A stretch of 32,524 bases of DNA from Syntrophus sp. PtaU1.Bin005 (GTDB taxonomy: Bacteria; Desulfobacterota; Syntrophia; Syntrophales; Syntrophaceae), in assembly GCA_002067745.1 (NCBI GenBank), contig MVRU01000027.1:1-32524 (forward strand), written 5' to 3'. Under the pieces are notes generated by a model. It was not told the origin of the DNA. It saw nothing but the letters and a program-made list of their open reading frames with translations, and did not search any database. The position numbers were made by a program, and so were the translations under genes. Below, in pieces: positions 26,313-32,524 of this stretch. Each line of letters starts with the position of its first letter. The stretch's first letter is position 1.

Positions 26313-28283
26313 ATGTCTTTTGCTGGCGATTTGTCATATCGGAGCTGGGTCGAAGTGGACCTGGACAGCTTTACACGGAACTGGTCGGAACTGCGGCGGC
26401 TTGTCGGGCCTTCGGTCAAGATCCTTCAGGTGGTCAAGGCGGATGCTTACGGCCATGGCGCCATCGAGATCTCCCATACGGCGCTGAAGAACGGAGCCGC
26501 CTGCCTCGGTGTGGCCAATGCCGACGAAGGCGTACAGCTCCGGGTCAGCGGGATTACCGCCCCGATCATCATTTTGAGCCCGTCCACGAAGGGGGAGATC
26601 CGCGAGATCATCAAATACGGATTGACCCCGTCTCTGTCGGATCTTATGTTTGCCGGGGAATTCCAGCGCCACCTTGAAGAGGCGGGCGTGACGGCGCCCG
26701 TTCATATCGAGATCGACACGGGAATGGGCCGGGGCGGCATCCTCTGGAACGAAGCCCCCGCCCTGATCAGGAAAATTCTCGCGTTCCCGAATATCGTGGT
26801 TGAGGGCCTCTTTTCCCATTTTGCCTCCAGCGAGATCTGCGTCAATTTCAACGAACAGCAGGGGACGCTTTTCCTCGCGCTGGTCGAGAAGCTGTCCGCG
26901 GAGGGGATTTCGATCCCGATCAAGCATATGGCCAACAGCGGTGCGATTCTCAATTACCCGCGGTTTTTTCTGGATATGGTGCGTCCCGGCCTTATGTCCT
27001 ACGGGATTCATCCGGCGACCCAAACGGAGGGGAAAGCCGACCTCTGTCCCGTCATGAGCTTCAAGACCCGGGTGATTCTCCTCAAGGAATTTCCCAAAGG
27101 GGCGGGGATCGGCTATAACCGGACCTACATAACGGATCGCCCGTCCCGGATTGCCACCCTTCCCGTAGGGTATGGCGACGGATACGGAATCATCCTGTCC
27201 AATCAGGGCGAGGTGCTGATTCGGGGGAAGCGTGTGCCTGTCGTCGGAAGGGTTTCCATGGACATGGTCACCATCGATGTGAGCTCTCTTCCCGATTGCC
27301 GGATCGGCGATGAAGCGGTTCTCATGGGGCGGCAGGGCGGTGAGGAAATTTCCGCCAACGACATCGCTTCGCGAATCGGGACCATCAGTTACGATATTCT
27401 CTGTACTCTGGGCAAGCGGGCCCCCCGGATTTTTGTGCAGCAGGGCCGAGCCGAAGCCGTCGAACCGCGGCTGCGAAGGATCTTCATCCCCCAGGAAGAG
27501 CGGTCCCTGGCGAGGATCGACGGGATGATCCGCCAGTGCTTCCAGGTCAGGGCGCGAAGCGAAGAACTGGGTGACGCCATTTTTTACGAAATGTTTGAGG
27601 CGCTCTTCGGAAAAAATGACCGGCCGTTGGAGCTGCGGACGAATTTTCGCTATGATATCACCTTATCCGAACCCGGGGGTGAACAGGCCGGGGAAACGGG
27701 GCCGGCAGCCGACGGGTTCCGCGTGACGACCCATATCGAATATACCAAGGTCTTCCGGAATCCCGTCTTTCTCATCGGCTGCGCTCTGGATAACGGTCAG
27801 CTCTCCGCTTTTTTTGATGATCCGCTCTGTGAATATCGATGGCTGCTTCAGGATGGCGGCTCCGGAGACGCGGATAAGGATTTCAGGGTGAACCGGGTGC
27901 GGATCGACGAGGAGGACATTCCGGTCATCCGAAGGGAGAGCACAAACCGCGGCTATGAAGTCTGGTGCGGCGGCGAGCATCTCAAGGAAAGGCTCGGTCA
28001 GCAGGTCAGAGTGGAACTGGAGGTTGTCACCCGCTCATCACGGGGCTGCAGGTTCTTCCCCGTCTATCTTGTTTACCCCACGCGCGGCCTGGAGATTAAC
28101 TTCCGCTATGAAGGGACGCCCGTTTCCACCGTCCAGGAAATCTGCTTTTTCGCCGGAAAGCACCCCTATCCCGAAATTATCCGGGATCCTGGACGTTGCG
28201 TTTCGCTGCGAATTCGTGATGGTGAATGGATCTTCCCCAACAGCGGGGTGACCTTTCTCTGGGACTATGATCCATCGAAGTAG
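26313..28283 (+). CDS. alr: Alanine racemase with an unrecognised C-terminal domain
   Basis: This 656-residue protein is far longer than the usual 360-390 of alanine racemase. Residues about 8-375 form a complete enzyme: PLP Lys42 in VVKADAYGHG, HIEIDTGMGRGG, the M-A-N-S-G motif, Tyr268 in GIGYNRTY as second base, and GRVSMDMVTIDVS. It interconverts L- and D-alanine for peptidoglycan. After a linker (about 380-400) comes a second region of about 250 residues that I cannot assign. It is rich in predicted beta strands (for example VTTHIEYTKVFRNPVFLIGC and RVELEVVTRSSRGCRFFPVY) with no transmembrane segment or recognised catalytic motif. The frame is open and uninterrupted, so the fusion looks real. 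The gene stands 101 bp before the ligase that uses its product. Confidence 0.88.
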   Translation: MSFAGDLSYRSWVEVDLDSFTRNWSELRRLVGPSVKILQVVKADAYGHGAIEISHTALKNGAACLGVANADEGVQLRVSGITAPIIILSPSTKGEIREIIKYGLTPSLSDLMFAGEFQRHLEEAGVTAPVHIEIDTGMGRGGILWNEAPALIRKILAFPNIVVEGLFSHFASSEICVNFNEQQGTLFLALVEKLSAEGISIPIKHMANSGAILNYPRFFLDMVRPGLMSYGIHPATQTEGKADLCPVMSFKTRVILLKEFPKGAGIGYNRTYITDRPSRIATLPVGYGDGYGIILSNQGEVLIRGKRVPVVGRVSMDMVTIDVSSLPDCRIGDEAVLMGRQGGEEISANDIASRIGTISYDILCTLGKRAPRIFVQQGRAEAVEPRLRRIFIPQEERSLARIDGMIRQCFQVRARSEELGDAIFYEMFEALFGKNDRPLELRTNFRYDITLSEPGGEQAGETGPAADGFRVTTHIEYTKVFRNPVFLIGCALDNGQLSAFFDDPLCEYRWLLQDGGSGDADKDFRVNRVRIDEEDIPVIRRESTNRGYEVWCGGEHLKERLGQQVRVELEVVTRSSRGCRFFPVYLVYPTRGLEINFRYEGTPVSTVQEICFFAGKHPYPEIIRDPGRCVSLRIRDGEWIFPNSGVTFLWDYDPSK

Positions 28284-28402
28284 GCTGAACACGCATCAAC
28301 AGGGTTCCGGTTCAGGCAGGAAGAACGCTTCAGCGCGGAAGGGCGGATCAGTTTGAACAGCACGGCACCAAGAATATCTCCGGAATGAAGAGAGGCGCTT
28401 AC

Positions 28403-29398
28403 ATGGAAAAGAAAACGGTGGGGTTGTTTTTCGGCGGGTTGAGCAACGAGGCTGACATATCCGTCATCTCGGCAAAAAATATCATCAAGGCCTTTGATTA
28501 CAGCAAATACAACCTGGTTCTGGTTTACTGGCACAAAAACAACAAATTCTACGTGCTGGAAGACGCCGAGGAAGCAGGTCATCCTTCGGAAGAGCAGGAA
28601 ATAACCATGGGCGATTTTTCAAGGCTCTTTGATGTCGCCCTGCCGATCACCCATGGCAAATACGGGGAAGACGGGGCATTGCAGGGGCTCTTTGAAATCC
28701 AGAAGGTGCCCTATTGTGGATGCCGGGTTTTGAGCTCGAGCTTATGCATGGACAAGGCTGTCTTTAAAACGTTTCTGATCGGCCATGGTATTAGCCAGGT
28801 CCCTTTCGACTTTATGGATCTGCGGGGCAGGAAAAAGAGCGATGTCGATCAGTGGGTGGAAAAAATCAAGGGCAGTTTTGAATTGCCGGTTTATATCAAG
28901 CCGTCCAATTCCGGTTCGTCCGTTGGAATTACGAAAGTAACCGATTTTAACGAGTTGAAAAAAGCCGTCAGGGAGGCCGCCCGGCACGACGATAAAATCC
29001 TGGCCGAGCAGGGGCTTGTAAATCCGAGGGAAATTGAAGTGGCCGTGCTGGGCAATGATGAATTGATCATTTCCGAGCCGGGAGAGCTTTTCCTGGGCGG
29101 GGCCTTCTATGATTTCGATGAAAAATACAAGAAAAACAGAACCCGGGTCGCCATTCCGGCCGATCTTGAGGCTGGCGCCAGGGATGAAATCAAAAGCACA
29201 ACGGAGAAGGTTTACCATCTGTGCGACTGCAAAGGCTTTGCCCGCGTAGATTACCTCCTGTGCGACGGCAGGATTTATCTGAACGAGATCAATACGCTGC
29301 CCGGTTTCACCGATATTTCCATGTTTCCGATGCTGATGAAACGTTCGGGCATCAGCTATAAAAACCTGATATCCAGAATTCTGAAGTTGGCGCTCTGA
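28403..29398 (+). CDS. ddl: D-alanine--D-alanine ligase
   Basis: This 331-residue ATP-grasp ligase joins two D-alanines for peptidoglycan. It shows the N-terminal GLFFGGLSNEADISVISA, HGKYGEDGALQGLFE, the ATP-binding YIKPSNSGSSVGITKV, and the metal site EINTLPGFTDISMFP. The omega-loop has Tyr in GGAFYDFDEKY, as in D-Ala-D-Ala ligases, whereas vancomycin-type D-Ala-D-Lac ligases have His there. The usual Ser-x-Glu-His motif reads SNEAD, a small deviation at the first binding site. The ATG at 28403 has AGAGG six bases upstream, better than the in-frame ATG at 28385. It follows the racemase fusion, forming a D-alanine supply pair. Confidence 0.92.
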   Translation: MEKKTVGLFFGGLSNEADISVISAKNIIKAFDYSKYNLVLVYWHKNNKFYVLEDAEEAGHPSEEQEITMGDFSRLFDVALPITHGKYGEDGALQGLFEIQKVPYCGCRVLSSSLCMDKAVFKTFLIGHGISQVPFDFMDLRGRKKSDVDQWVEKIKGSFELPVYIKPSNSGSSVGITKVTDFNELKKAVREAARHDDKILAEQGLVNPREIEVAVLGNDELIISEPGELFLGGAFYDFDEKYKKNRTRVAIPADLEAGARDEIKSTTEKVYHLCDCKGFARVDYLLCDGRIYLNEINTLPGFTDISMFPMLMKRSGISYKNLISRILKLAL

Positions 29399-29555: not shown

Positions 29556-29597
29556 TTGACGGAATTTATATGTTGCATCAGGGAGTTAAGGGATATC

Positions 29598-30131
29598 ATG
29601 AGGGACCGGTTTTTCAATCCGTCGCAGATGTCTCTGGCGAAAGCCGCTTTTGACCACGCGGAACAGCTCGTGGCGAATTACTACCGGTTCGGGCGCCGGG
29701 CATTTCAGGCGTACCGCTATGATATCCGGACCTTGGCCGAGCTGGAAACCCATGAGATTCAGGATGGGGCCTTTGCCCACCTCTGTCGGTATCGCTATGA
29801 AAAGAAGAGGTTTCCGGATGTCTCGCGAAGTTTTCACTTTTATCGCGTCTGCCTTCAGGACAACCGGATCCTGGATGCCGTCGAACGGGCAAACTCCTTT
29901 ATCAAGTTCGCGCCCCTGATGCTGTATATTGCGGCGCACGAACTGGTTCATGTCATCCGCTTCGATGAAGGCCTTTTTGATTTCGAGGCGCCCCAGGAAG
30001 AAAAGATCCGGGAGGAGGAAATCGTCCATTCCATCACCCGACAGATCATGCAGCCGGTTGTGCATCATGATCTCGGCCTCGTCCTTGATTGTTTCAGCAG
30101 CCAGTACCAGATTGGAGATTTATACAATTAA
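29598..30131 (+). CDS. Hypothetical HExxH (metallopeptidase-like) protein
   Basis: I do not recognise a named family for this 177-residue soluble protein. A helix near residues 122-130 reads AAHELVHVIRF, a classical HExxH zinc motif, followed by a Glu-rich EEKIREEEIVHS about 25 residues later that could supply the third ligand. This is the layout of small zincin metallopeptidases. The first half is rich in aromatic and basic residues. The ATG at 29598 has AAGGG seven bases upstream; an earlier TTG lies next to the predicted promoter and is unlikely. It is followed 25 bases later by a FmdB-type gene and probably shares its transcript. Confidence 0.65.
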   Translation: MRDRFFNPSQMSLAKAAFDHAEQLVANYYRFGRRAFQAYRYDIRTLAELETHEIQDGAFAHLCRYRYEKKRFPDVSRSFHFYRVCLQDNRILDAVERANSFIKFAPLMLYIAAHELVHVIRFDEGLFDFEAPQEEKIREEEIVHSITRQIMQPVVHHDLGLVLDCFSSQYQIGDLYN

Positions 30132-30580: not shown

Positions 30581-31318
30581 TTAGCGGGTCATTTTCCTCT
30601 TCAGGATTGCGAGACCTGCGAGACCGGGTCCGAAAAGAAGGAGCGCGCCGGGAAGAGGCACAGGTGCCGCCGTTTCCGTGATCGTCAGCTCCACGCCTGC
30701 CACGGAACCCCAGTTTTGACCTCGGGACTCAACGACATAAAGGCTCACAACATCGTCTTTATCGACCGCCAGGTCATTGAGGGCCTGGCCGGCTACCAGG
30801 GCATCCAGGAACGTCAGGGCATTCGCTTCGCCATTGTGGCTTGCATGGCTGATCGTTCCTGTCGCAAGAAGGGTGCTGCCGAGGTAGAGGGAAAAGTCGT
30901 TGCTCCTGGACACGCCCGCGTGGTCATACCAGATGCACCCGGAAAGGCTGATGGTCCCTGCTTCGGGTGCGGTCCATGTGAGGATGGACTCACCGTATGT
31001 TCCACCATTGGAGCTGTCCCAACTGTGCGTGTAGATGTTGTTGTCCGTCCCCTGCCACCACGCAGGCAGGAAATTGCCCCAGGAATTTCCCATGGCAAAG
31101 AAATCCATTCCAGCCGTCATGGGGCTTCCCGTGCCCACCTGATGCTGAAGAAGTTCGGAACCTTTCCATACCGCCCAGGTTCCATTGGGGTTGTCGATTT
31201 TGCTCCAATCGGTTGCCAGATCATAGGTTGTGGCGCACAGAGCGATCGACGGCGCCAGAAGTAAGGTCAGGAGCAAAACAAGTGCAAAGAATTTTCGTAA
31301 ACCAAGCCGTCTCATCAT
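30581..31318 (-). CDS. Secreted PEP-CTERM-type protein
   Basis: This 245-residue protein has a signal peptide (RKFFALVLLLTLLLAPSIALC) and a C-terminal sorting signal: VPLPGALLLFGPGLAGLAIL followed by the basic KRKMTR. This is the VPLP variant of the PEP-CTERM tripartite signal read by exosortase. The mature part is Trp/Gly/Ser-rich with a beta-sandwich look (TWTAPEAGTISLSGCIWYDH), similar to many extracellular PEP-CTERM proteins. GGGAGG precedes the double ATG. No exosortase is in the window. It lies downstream of selD on the same strand, with 139 bp between them. Confidence 0.8.
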   Translation of the reverse strand: MMRRLGLRKFFALVLLLTLLLAPSIALCATTYDLATDWSKIDNPNGTWAVWKGSELLQHQVGTGSPMTAGMDFFAMGNSWGNFLPAWWQGTDNNIYTHSWDSSNGGTYGESILTWTAPEAGTISLSGCIWYDHAGVSRSNDFSLYLGSTLLATGTISHASHNGEANALTFLDALVAGQALNDLAVDKDDVVSLYVVESRGQNWGSVAGVELTITETAAPVPLPGALLLFGPGLAGLAILKRKMTR

Positions 31319-31444: not shown

Positions 31445-31459
31445 AGGAGGGTTCCTCCT
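31445..31459 (-). other. Small hairpin at the end of selD
   Basis: AGGAGG (31445-31450) and CCTCCT (31454-31459) pair perfectly around three bases and overlap the selD stop codon. No T-run follows, so termination is doubtful; one arm also resembles a ribosome binding sequence on the minus strand. Confidence 0.3.
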
Positions 31460-32510
31460 ATTCAACGATGATCCGGCCGGCTGGGGCGGACAAGACCTCG
31501 CCGACGATGGCCGCTTCGGCCAGGCCGGCGGCGTGCAGACGGGCGAGACAGGCTTCCGCCTGGTCGGCAGACAGCGCGAAGAACAATCCGCCTGAGGTCT
31601 GCGGATCGAAGAGAATGTCGGATCTCCATTCCGGACAGGCTGGACTCAGATCCATCAGGGGCATCCGGAAATCTCGATTCCGGTAAAGGCCTTCGGGAAG
31701 GATGCCCATTTCGGCCAGTTCCCGGATTTCGGGGAAGAAGGGAACCCGGTCGGAAAAAATCCGGATGCCGATGTCCTGCCCCTCGATCATTTCCGCGAGG
31801 TGGCCGAGGAGTCCGAAGCCGGTGATATCCGTGCAGGCGTGGACGGCCGGGGTTGCCTGGATGATTTCTGCGGCCTTTTTGTTCAGCGCCGCCATGGAGG
31901 CGATGGATCCGGCAATCAGGGCTTTCGAGGCGATTCCGGCTTTTATGGCCGTACCGGCGATCCCGGTCCCAAGGGGTTTGGTGAGGATGAGGCGGTCTCC
32001 GGGGCGGGAGCCGGTATTGAGCAGGACCTTATCCGGATGGACGGTTCCCGTTACGGAAAGGCCGTATTTGAGCTCCTTGTCCTCCACGCTGTGGCCGCCC
32101 ACCAGCACGACCCCCGCTTCCCGCATCTTGTCCAGACCGCCGAGGAGGATCTGGCGGAGGATGGAGATGTCCATGGTTCTGATCGGGAAGCAGACGATAT
32201 TCATGGCGGTCAGCGGCAGGCCGCCCATGGCGTACACGTCGCTCAGGGAGTTGGACACGGCAACCTGGCCGAAGGTGTAGGGATCATCCACGATGGGCGT
32301 GAAGAAATCCAGGGTCTGAATGAGGGCCAGGTCATCCCGTAATTTGTATACACCGGCATCTTCACCGTGCTCCATTCCCACAATCAGGTTGGGATCAGAG
32401 ATCAGGGGAAGATCGCACAACGCTTCACTCAGGTCTCCCGGACCTAATTTGCAGGCTCAACCGGCTCCCGAGACGGTTGTGGTCAGTCGGGGCTTCTTGG
32501 GATCCTCCAT
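31458..32510 (-). CDS. selD: Selenophosphate synthetase with selenocysteine (Sec18)
   Basis: This 350-residue protein makes selenophosphate from selenide and ATP, the selenium donor for selenocysteine. The frame from 32420 onward encodes the bulk of SelD (GMEHGEDAGVYKL, DVYAMGGLPLTAMNIVCFPI, VGGHSVEDKELKYGLSVTG, DITGFGLLGHLAEM). Upstream, an in-frame TGA at 32459-32457 is followed by the family active-site context: TTTVSGAG-U-ACKLGPGDLS, where the Sec or Cys and Lys21 are catalytic. The frame then reaches an ATG at 32510 with GGAG upstream. I therefore read the TGA as selenocysteine, not a stop; many SelD proteins are selenoproteins. A gene finder ignoring this would truncate the protein by 30 residues and lose its active site. 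Confidence 0.9.
32429..32447 (-). promoter_or_regulatory. Bacterial SECIS-like hairpin after the selD UGA
   Basis: On the minus strand TTAGGTC and GACCTGA pair over 7 bp (one G-U) around the loop CGGGA. The stem begins nine bases after the UGA and the loop lies 17-21 bases after it, within the range known for bacterial SECIS elements. A G is present in the first two loop positions, as SelB binding requires. Confidence 0.7.
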
Positions 32511-32524
32511 GAACCATATCTCCA

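Follow-up and report, generated by a model that had tools for sequence, protein, structure and literature searches.

The gene alr-ext of the Syntrophales bacterium Syntrophus sp. PtaU1.Bin005 encodes a genuine variant, found throughout its lineage, of a familiar essential enzyme: an alanine racemase (Alr) with a C-terminal extension of about 280 residues, which was gained once at the base of the Syntrophales and has been kept by practically every descendant. Alr is an essential, well-studied antibiotic target and is usually seen as a simple homodimer with two domains in about 370 residues. In the window, that is, the whole stretch of 32,524 nucleotides that was analysed, alr-ext occupies positions 26313..28283 (+) and, as the sole alanine racemase of this bacterium, is presumably essential. 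We favour, with a probability of roughly 0.45, a non-catalytic role of the extension in the assembly of this sole racemase or in docking.

Architecture, distribution and origin of the extended racemase

The gene is an uninterrupted open reading frame with an ATG start that encodes 656 amino acids. Residues 15-234 form the PLP barrel domain Ala_racemase_N (26355..27014, +; Pfam PF01168, E 2.8e-64) and residues 247-373 the Ala_racemase_C domain (27051..27431, +; PF00842, E 1.2e-46), while the TIGR00492 alr model covers residues 11-375 with 346 bits against a cut-off of 168. As both Pfam racemase domains are present and the TIGR00492 equivalog cut-off is exceeded, the protein belongs to the Alr family; the full model of alr-ext superimposes on solved Alr structures with Z 36-44 (best Z 44 over 380 residues at 2.1 Å). 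An earlier note on this DNA had placed the end of the racemase at about residue 375 and had described a frame continuing for about 280 residues of beta-rich sequence. All of this held: the Pfam domains end at residue 373 and TIGR00492 at 375, a single frame runs on to residue 656 with no stop codon between the intact racemase (residues 10-375) and the extension, and the latter is predicted to comprise a helix pair and, behind it, an all-beta domain. Since alr-ext is the only Alr of the genome, racemase activity on alanine is likely.

Within the extension, a conserved linker (residues 376-395; 27438..27497, +; consensus EPRLRRIFIPxEExS and on), modelled with low confidence, leads to a two-helix segment seen in the structure models (residues 396-432; 27498..27608, +) and a beta-saddle-like domain (residues 442-652; 27636..28268, +), the latter suggested by the model and by Foldseek and VIA matches. 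Three motifs stand out among 47 sequences: CEYRW in the saddle domain (residues 506-510; 27828..27842, +), in which C, E, Y and R are invariant; YPTRG (residues 588-592; 28074..28088, +), with invariant Y, P, R and G and T in at least 90%; and the C-terminal WxFPxSG (residues 639-645; 28227..28247, +), with an invariant G and the other positions at 90% or more. Residues C490, C506, E507, R509 and R591 are invariant in the extension, and C409 and C552 are nearly so. By sequence, residues 376-656 had no match in Pfam, NCBIfam or the PDB, and no consistent match was obtained when the alignment of 47 extension members was compared to PDB, Pfam, PADLOC and PHROGs; Pfam matches of single members were at chance level, the best being M64_N with E 0.0065 in one of the 47. 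Neither a confident match to a known domain commonly fused to Alr nor a stop codon near residue 380, the two outcomes that the earlier note had named as speaking against its reading, was thus found, and the in-frame extension recurs in relatives.

In a first set of relatives, 58 of 60 genomes carried the extension. It lies in frame behind the racemase in other genomes of the order, at 43-79% identity, the mean identity to the window sequence being 57% for the extension and 67% for the racemase; the loci include those of Syntrophus sp. PtaB.Bin001, one Syntrophaceae bacterium and one Syntrophales bacterium. With a profile of 47 homologues, the extension was detected in 139 of 155 Syntrophales genomes, and in all 53 genera (53/53); among the good-quality genomes of the class, 90 of 92 had it. 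It is essentially single-copy per genome in the order, some profile matches being split, those few on broken contigs. A single PF00842 match was found in the window's own genome and in 57 of the 60 relatives, and none of the 60 had two; the Syntrophales therefore have no Alr besides the fused gene. The fusion, which lies outside the standard Alr architecture as had been noted, is therefore not peculiar to the window but fixed in the sole Alr of the order.

No credible match to the extension was obtained outside the order when the profile was run against 297 and 395 genomes of the phylum (overlapping samples), and it was absent from phages, plasmids and viral contigs. The Alr frames listed outside the order mostly measure 370-490 residues, compared to about 650-680 in the Syntrophales. 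Several candidates were rejected as chance: weak single-sequence matches in the phylum over extension residues 155-265, which lie within the biotin synthase BioB and disappeared with the profile, and three other weak profile matches outside the order, to a 100-residue open reading frame, a hybrid histidine kinase and a glycosyltransferase. A 729-residue Alr frame in genome G295 turned out to be no fusion but a normal Alr preceded by a long open frame. A contig scan with exact peptide patterns, a method of low sensitivity, returned only five loci, all of the same kind, and the extension may also occur in other phyla. Its specificity to the order is hence shown within the phylum, which the profile searches covered. 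In the open-access literature, we found no description of Alr extensions or fusions, or of the Alr of Syntrophales or Syntrophus.

A tree built from 24 fused and 30 unfused racemase domains recovers the fused racemases as monophyletic with a support of 100/100, on a long stem (0.9 changes per column). This tree is most simply read as a single fusion that preceded the radiation of the order. The dN/dS ratio is 0.09-0.15 for the extension and 0.10-0.15 for the racemase part (six computable pairs); the extension is under strong purifying selection, like the racemase. The extension is real and no sequencing artefact, because it occurs in frame in other genomes of the order and its dN/dS is similar to that of the racemase part.

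A changed charge in the active site

The residues K42, Y268, R140, H169, R224, M316, D317 and Y360, which correspond to the PLP lysine, the catalytic tyrosine, Arg136, His166, Arg219, Met312-Asp313 and Tyr354, are invariant in 54 fused sequences. The PLP lysine K42 (26436..26438, +; Lys39 of G. stearothermophilus Alr) and the catalytic Y268 (27114..27116, +; Tyr265) are conserved in all 54 fused and all 30 outgroup sequences. Two active-site positions, by contrast, are fixed differences of the fused clade. E133 (26709..26711, +), at the position of Lys129, is Glu in 54/54 fused sequences and Lys in 30/30 unfused Alr of the Desulfobacterota; lysine is common but not obligatory at this position in Alr, and the glutamate was not used to exclude membership. 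S315 (27255..27257, +), at the position of Cys311 and equivalent to Ser309 of S. pneumoniae Alr beside Arg136, is Ser in 54/54 fused sequences and Cys in 30/30 of the outgroup.

Lys129 of Alr, usually in carbamylated form, positions Arg136, the residue that binds the carboxylate of the substrate; an alternative is Asn with chloride, accompanied by Thr at a covarying position (PMC3146814). Where Lys129 is replaced, as in B. anthracis-type Alr and the Lyr/Bar racemases, another group must hold Arg136 (PMC3146814, PMC3485190, PMC3245724). Judging from the sequence, Glu at position 129 would provide a negative charge without CO2. In the reading favoured here, E133 would act as a built-in negative charge in place of the CO2-derived carbamate and hold R140, the Arg136 equivalent that binds the substrate carboxylate.

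Fold, neighbourhood and possible role of the extension

In its model, the extension is disordered at the start and then forms two helices and an all-beta domain, for which pLDDT is mostly 82-96. In the full-length model, the linker reached a pLDDT of only about 29-46, and at a pTM of only 0.57 the placement of the extension is not fixed by the model. A Foldseek search with the predicted structure, a check that the earlier note had proposed, returned the N-terminal beta domain of M1 aminopeptidases as top match with E 4e-5 and a probability of 1.00, but with TM-scores of 0.32-0.36 and without support from sequence. VIA gave Z 11.5 for 3kd4 (BDI_1141), 11.1 for yeast OST1, 10.9 for lpg2210 and 9-10 for M1 enzymes, in alignments of about 150-170 residues at a large rmsd of 3.2-3.8 Å. 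None of the 47 members had a Pfam match to PF17900 (Peptidase_M1_N) or DUF3857 (PF12969); in hhalign comparisons, the probabilities were 1.6% for PF17900 against a 15-member alignment and 0.2% for DUF3857 against an alignment of only four sequences, so that homology to either family is unsupported by profile-profile comparison. Because the TM-scores are low and profile-profile support is lacking, the predicted M1N-saddle-like fold is best taken as a resemblance and not as membership. The earlier description of the domain as unassignable stands at the level of sequence (Pfam, NCBIfam and PDB), whereas the predicted fold shows some likeness to known domains. A PF17900 match occurred in 0 of 31 related genomes, and therefore a resident peptidase is not an obvious source of the saddle-like domain.

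As the earlier note had observed, ddl adjoins alr-ext: the next gene downstream, outside the fusion, encodes a canonical-type D-alanine--D-alanine ligase (28385..29398, +; PF07478, E 3e-64) that scores above the cut-offs of NCBIfam NF002528 and TIGR01205. In many relatives, alr-ext lies directly downstream of a CHASE2-adenylate cyclase in an array that continues with Ddl paralogue A, an outer-membrane protein, Ddl paralogue B, MlaE, MlaF and MlaD. This array, seen at L059 (2763-13001), L048, L062, L064 and other loci, joins a cyclase, D-Ala metabolism and lipid transport. Two Ddl paralogues are present in most relatives, 67-78% conserved within each. The first (L059 7128-8183, L048 7268-8320, L034 6923-7972) carries the motif DPNSSSG and may, to judge from this, have an altered activity; the second carries EPNTxPG and the ddl of the window EINTLPG. 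The window's subclade has neither the cyclase orthologue nor the Ddl paralogues at the locus but a canonical ddl, 28-31% identical to the two paralogues, and keeps the extension; the genomes G017 and G023 also retain it while missing the cyclase orthologue. None of the neighbours of alr-ext looks like an obligate partner, and the adjacency of ddl is weak evidence for the role of the extension because the adjacent ddl varies between lineages while the extension stays.

Further downstream in the window, positions 29556-30131 (+) encode a 191-residue protein with a zinc-peptidase-like HELVH motif and no Pfam or NCBIfam match, which is 51-59% conserved in other Syntrophales and is followed by a small Cys-rich, zinc-ribbon-like protein. 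An exported-looking protein of about 245 residues (30581-31318, -) has the C-terminal end VPLPGALLLFGPGLAGLAILKRKMTR, which resembles a sorting signal of the PEP-CTERM type. A selD-like gene (31458-32522, -) contains an in-frame TGA in GAG-TGA-ACK, the listed open reading frame beginning after it; this TGA probably encodes selenocysteine, which is common in SelD proteins.

The extension may, as the earlier note suggested, regulate, localise or extend D-alanine metabolism, and what it does has to be weighed among several readings. That it is a dispensable neutral appendage, or the frame a product of misassembly or readthrough, would fit the absence of a match in any family database searched; however, this is refuted by the conservation data, with the extension in 90 of the class's 92 good-quality genomes, a dN/dS of about 0.1 and no stop at the junction, and is hardly credible. 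A second enzyme domain, making the protein bifunctional and in principle like MurF-Alr, might be expected from some 280 residues with many invariant polar positions. Yet no catalytic family was recognised and the nearest folds are the saddle-type N-terminal domains of M1 peptidases and that of OST1, which are accessory and not catalytic, and we regard this as quite improbable. The pathway logic and the Ddl-family gene found at the locus in the window and in most relatives examined would suit a docking platform for the D-Ala-D-Ala ligase or another peptidoglycan enzyme, by which D-alanine is channelled from Alr to Ddl. Such a platform is nevertheless unlikely: a specific Ddl interface should have changed along with the Ddl, which differs by lineage between the paralogues and the distant canonical enzyme, and no Ddl match was seen near alr-ext at L032, L035 and L045.

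The main rival to assembly or docking, to which we give a modest chance, is a sensory or allosteric domain for a small ligand, a metal or a redox signal, for example via the conserved cysteines, by which racemase activity would be adjusted to an energy-poor, strictly anaerobic lifestyle. C490 and C506 are found in 54/54 fused sequences, C409 in 52/54 and C552 in 51/54, conserved charged and aromatic residues cluster in the extension, and the cyclase directly precedes alr-ext in many relatives. Against this, no known sensor domain was recognised by sequence or among the top fold matches shown, and the window's subclade, G017 and G023 all have the extension but no cyclase orthologue.

That the extension is retained where the ancestral neighbours are gone speaks for either a universal partner or a role within the racemase itself. 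As an assembly or docking domain, the extension might pack on the Alr homodimer, or bind a partner common to all Syntrophales via the conserved saddle surface, and thereby set the quaternary state, the stability or the active-site access of the racemase. In solved Alr, both monomers contribute to the active-site entryway, with contacts between the N-terminal and C-terminal tails of opposing monomers (PMC3146814). Docking on the homodimer is attractive because of this entryway and because the linker is conserved yet of low confidence in a monomer model, which is what a segment docking on a second chain would show. The conserved polar and cysteine residues could equally form a ligand, metal or active site. 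We further consider it possible, if somewhat doubtful, that the protein represents a distinct form of Alr, in which a carbamate-free active site with a permanent Glu is coupled to a saddle domain that binds a ligand or a universal partner and controls the enzyme; if true, an essential enzyme that is targeted by antibiotics would have been rewired across a whole lineage.

Comparison with known racemases and saddle domains

The order-wide, single-origin architecture and the changed active-site charge show that Alr was remodelled once and kept throughout a major syntrophic lineage; the extension defines an unnamed domain family, and alr-ext predicts a CO2-independent racemase. With Alr (PLP fold type III, TIGR00492), the protein shares the catalytic residues tested, including the PLP lysine and the catalytic tyrosine, whereas its clade differs by the C-terminal extension of about 280 residues, Glu for Lys129 and Ser for Cys311. 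Similar to MurF-Alr (NF008897) and the VanT membrane serine racemases (NF033131/NF033132), the models of which give high scores over the racemase region, alr-ext has the racemase within a larger chain. However, in these proteins the partner is N-terminal to the racemase (model positions 460-821 of 822 and 339-693 of 697, respectively), while the racemase of alr-ext starts at about residue 10 and the extension is C-terminal and matches neither partner. The predicted beta-saddle-like fold resembles that of the N-terminal domain of M1 aminopeptidases (PF17900), OST1 and BDI_1141 (3kd4), but, unlike in M1 aminopeptidases, no metallopeptidase domain follows the saddle and the protein ends after it. 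Finally, Lys129 is replaced in the Asn129 Alr (B. anthracis type, with chloride for the carbamate) and in the Lyr/Bar racemases, as it is in the alr-ext clade, which instead has a Glu fixed across the order and a Ser at the covarying position.
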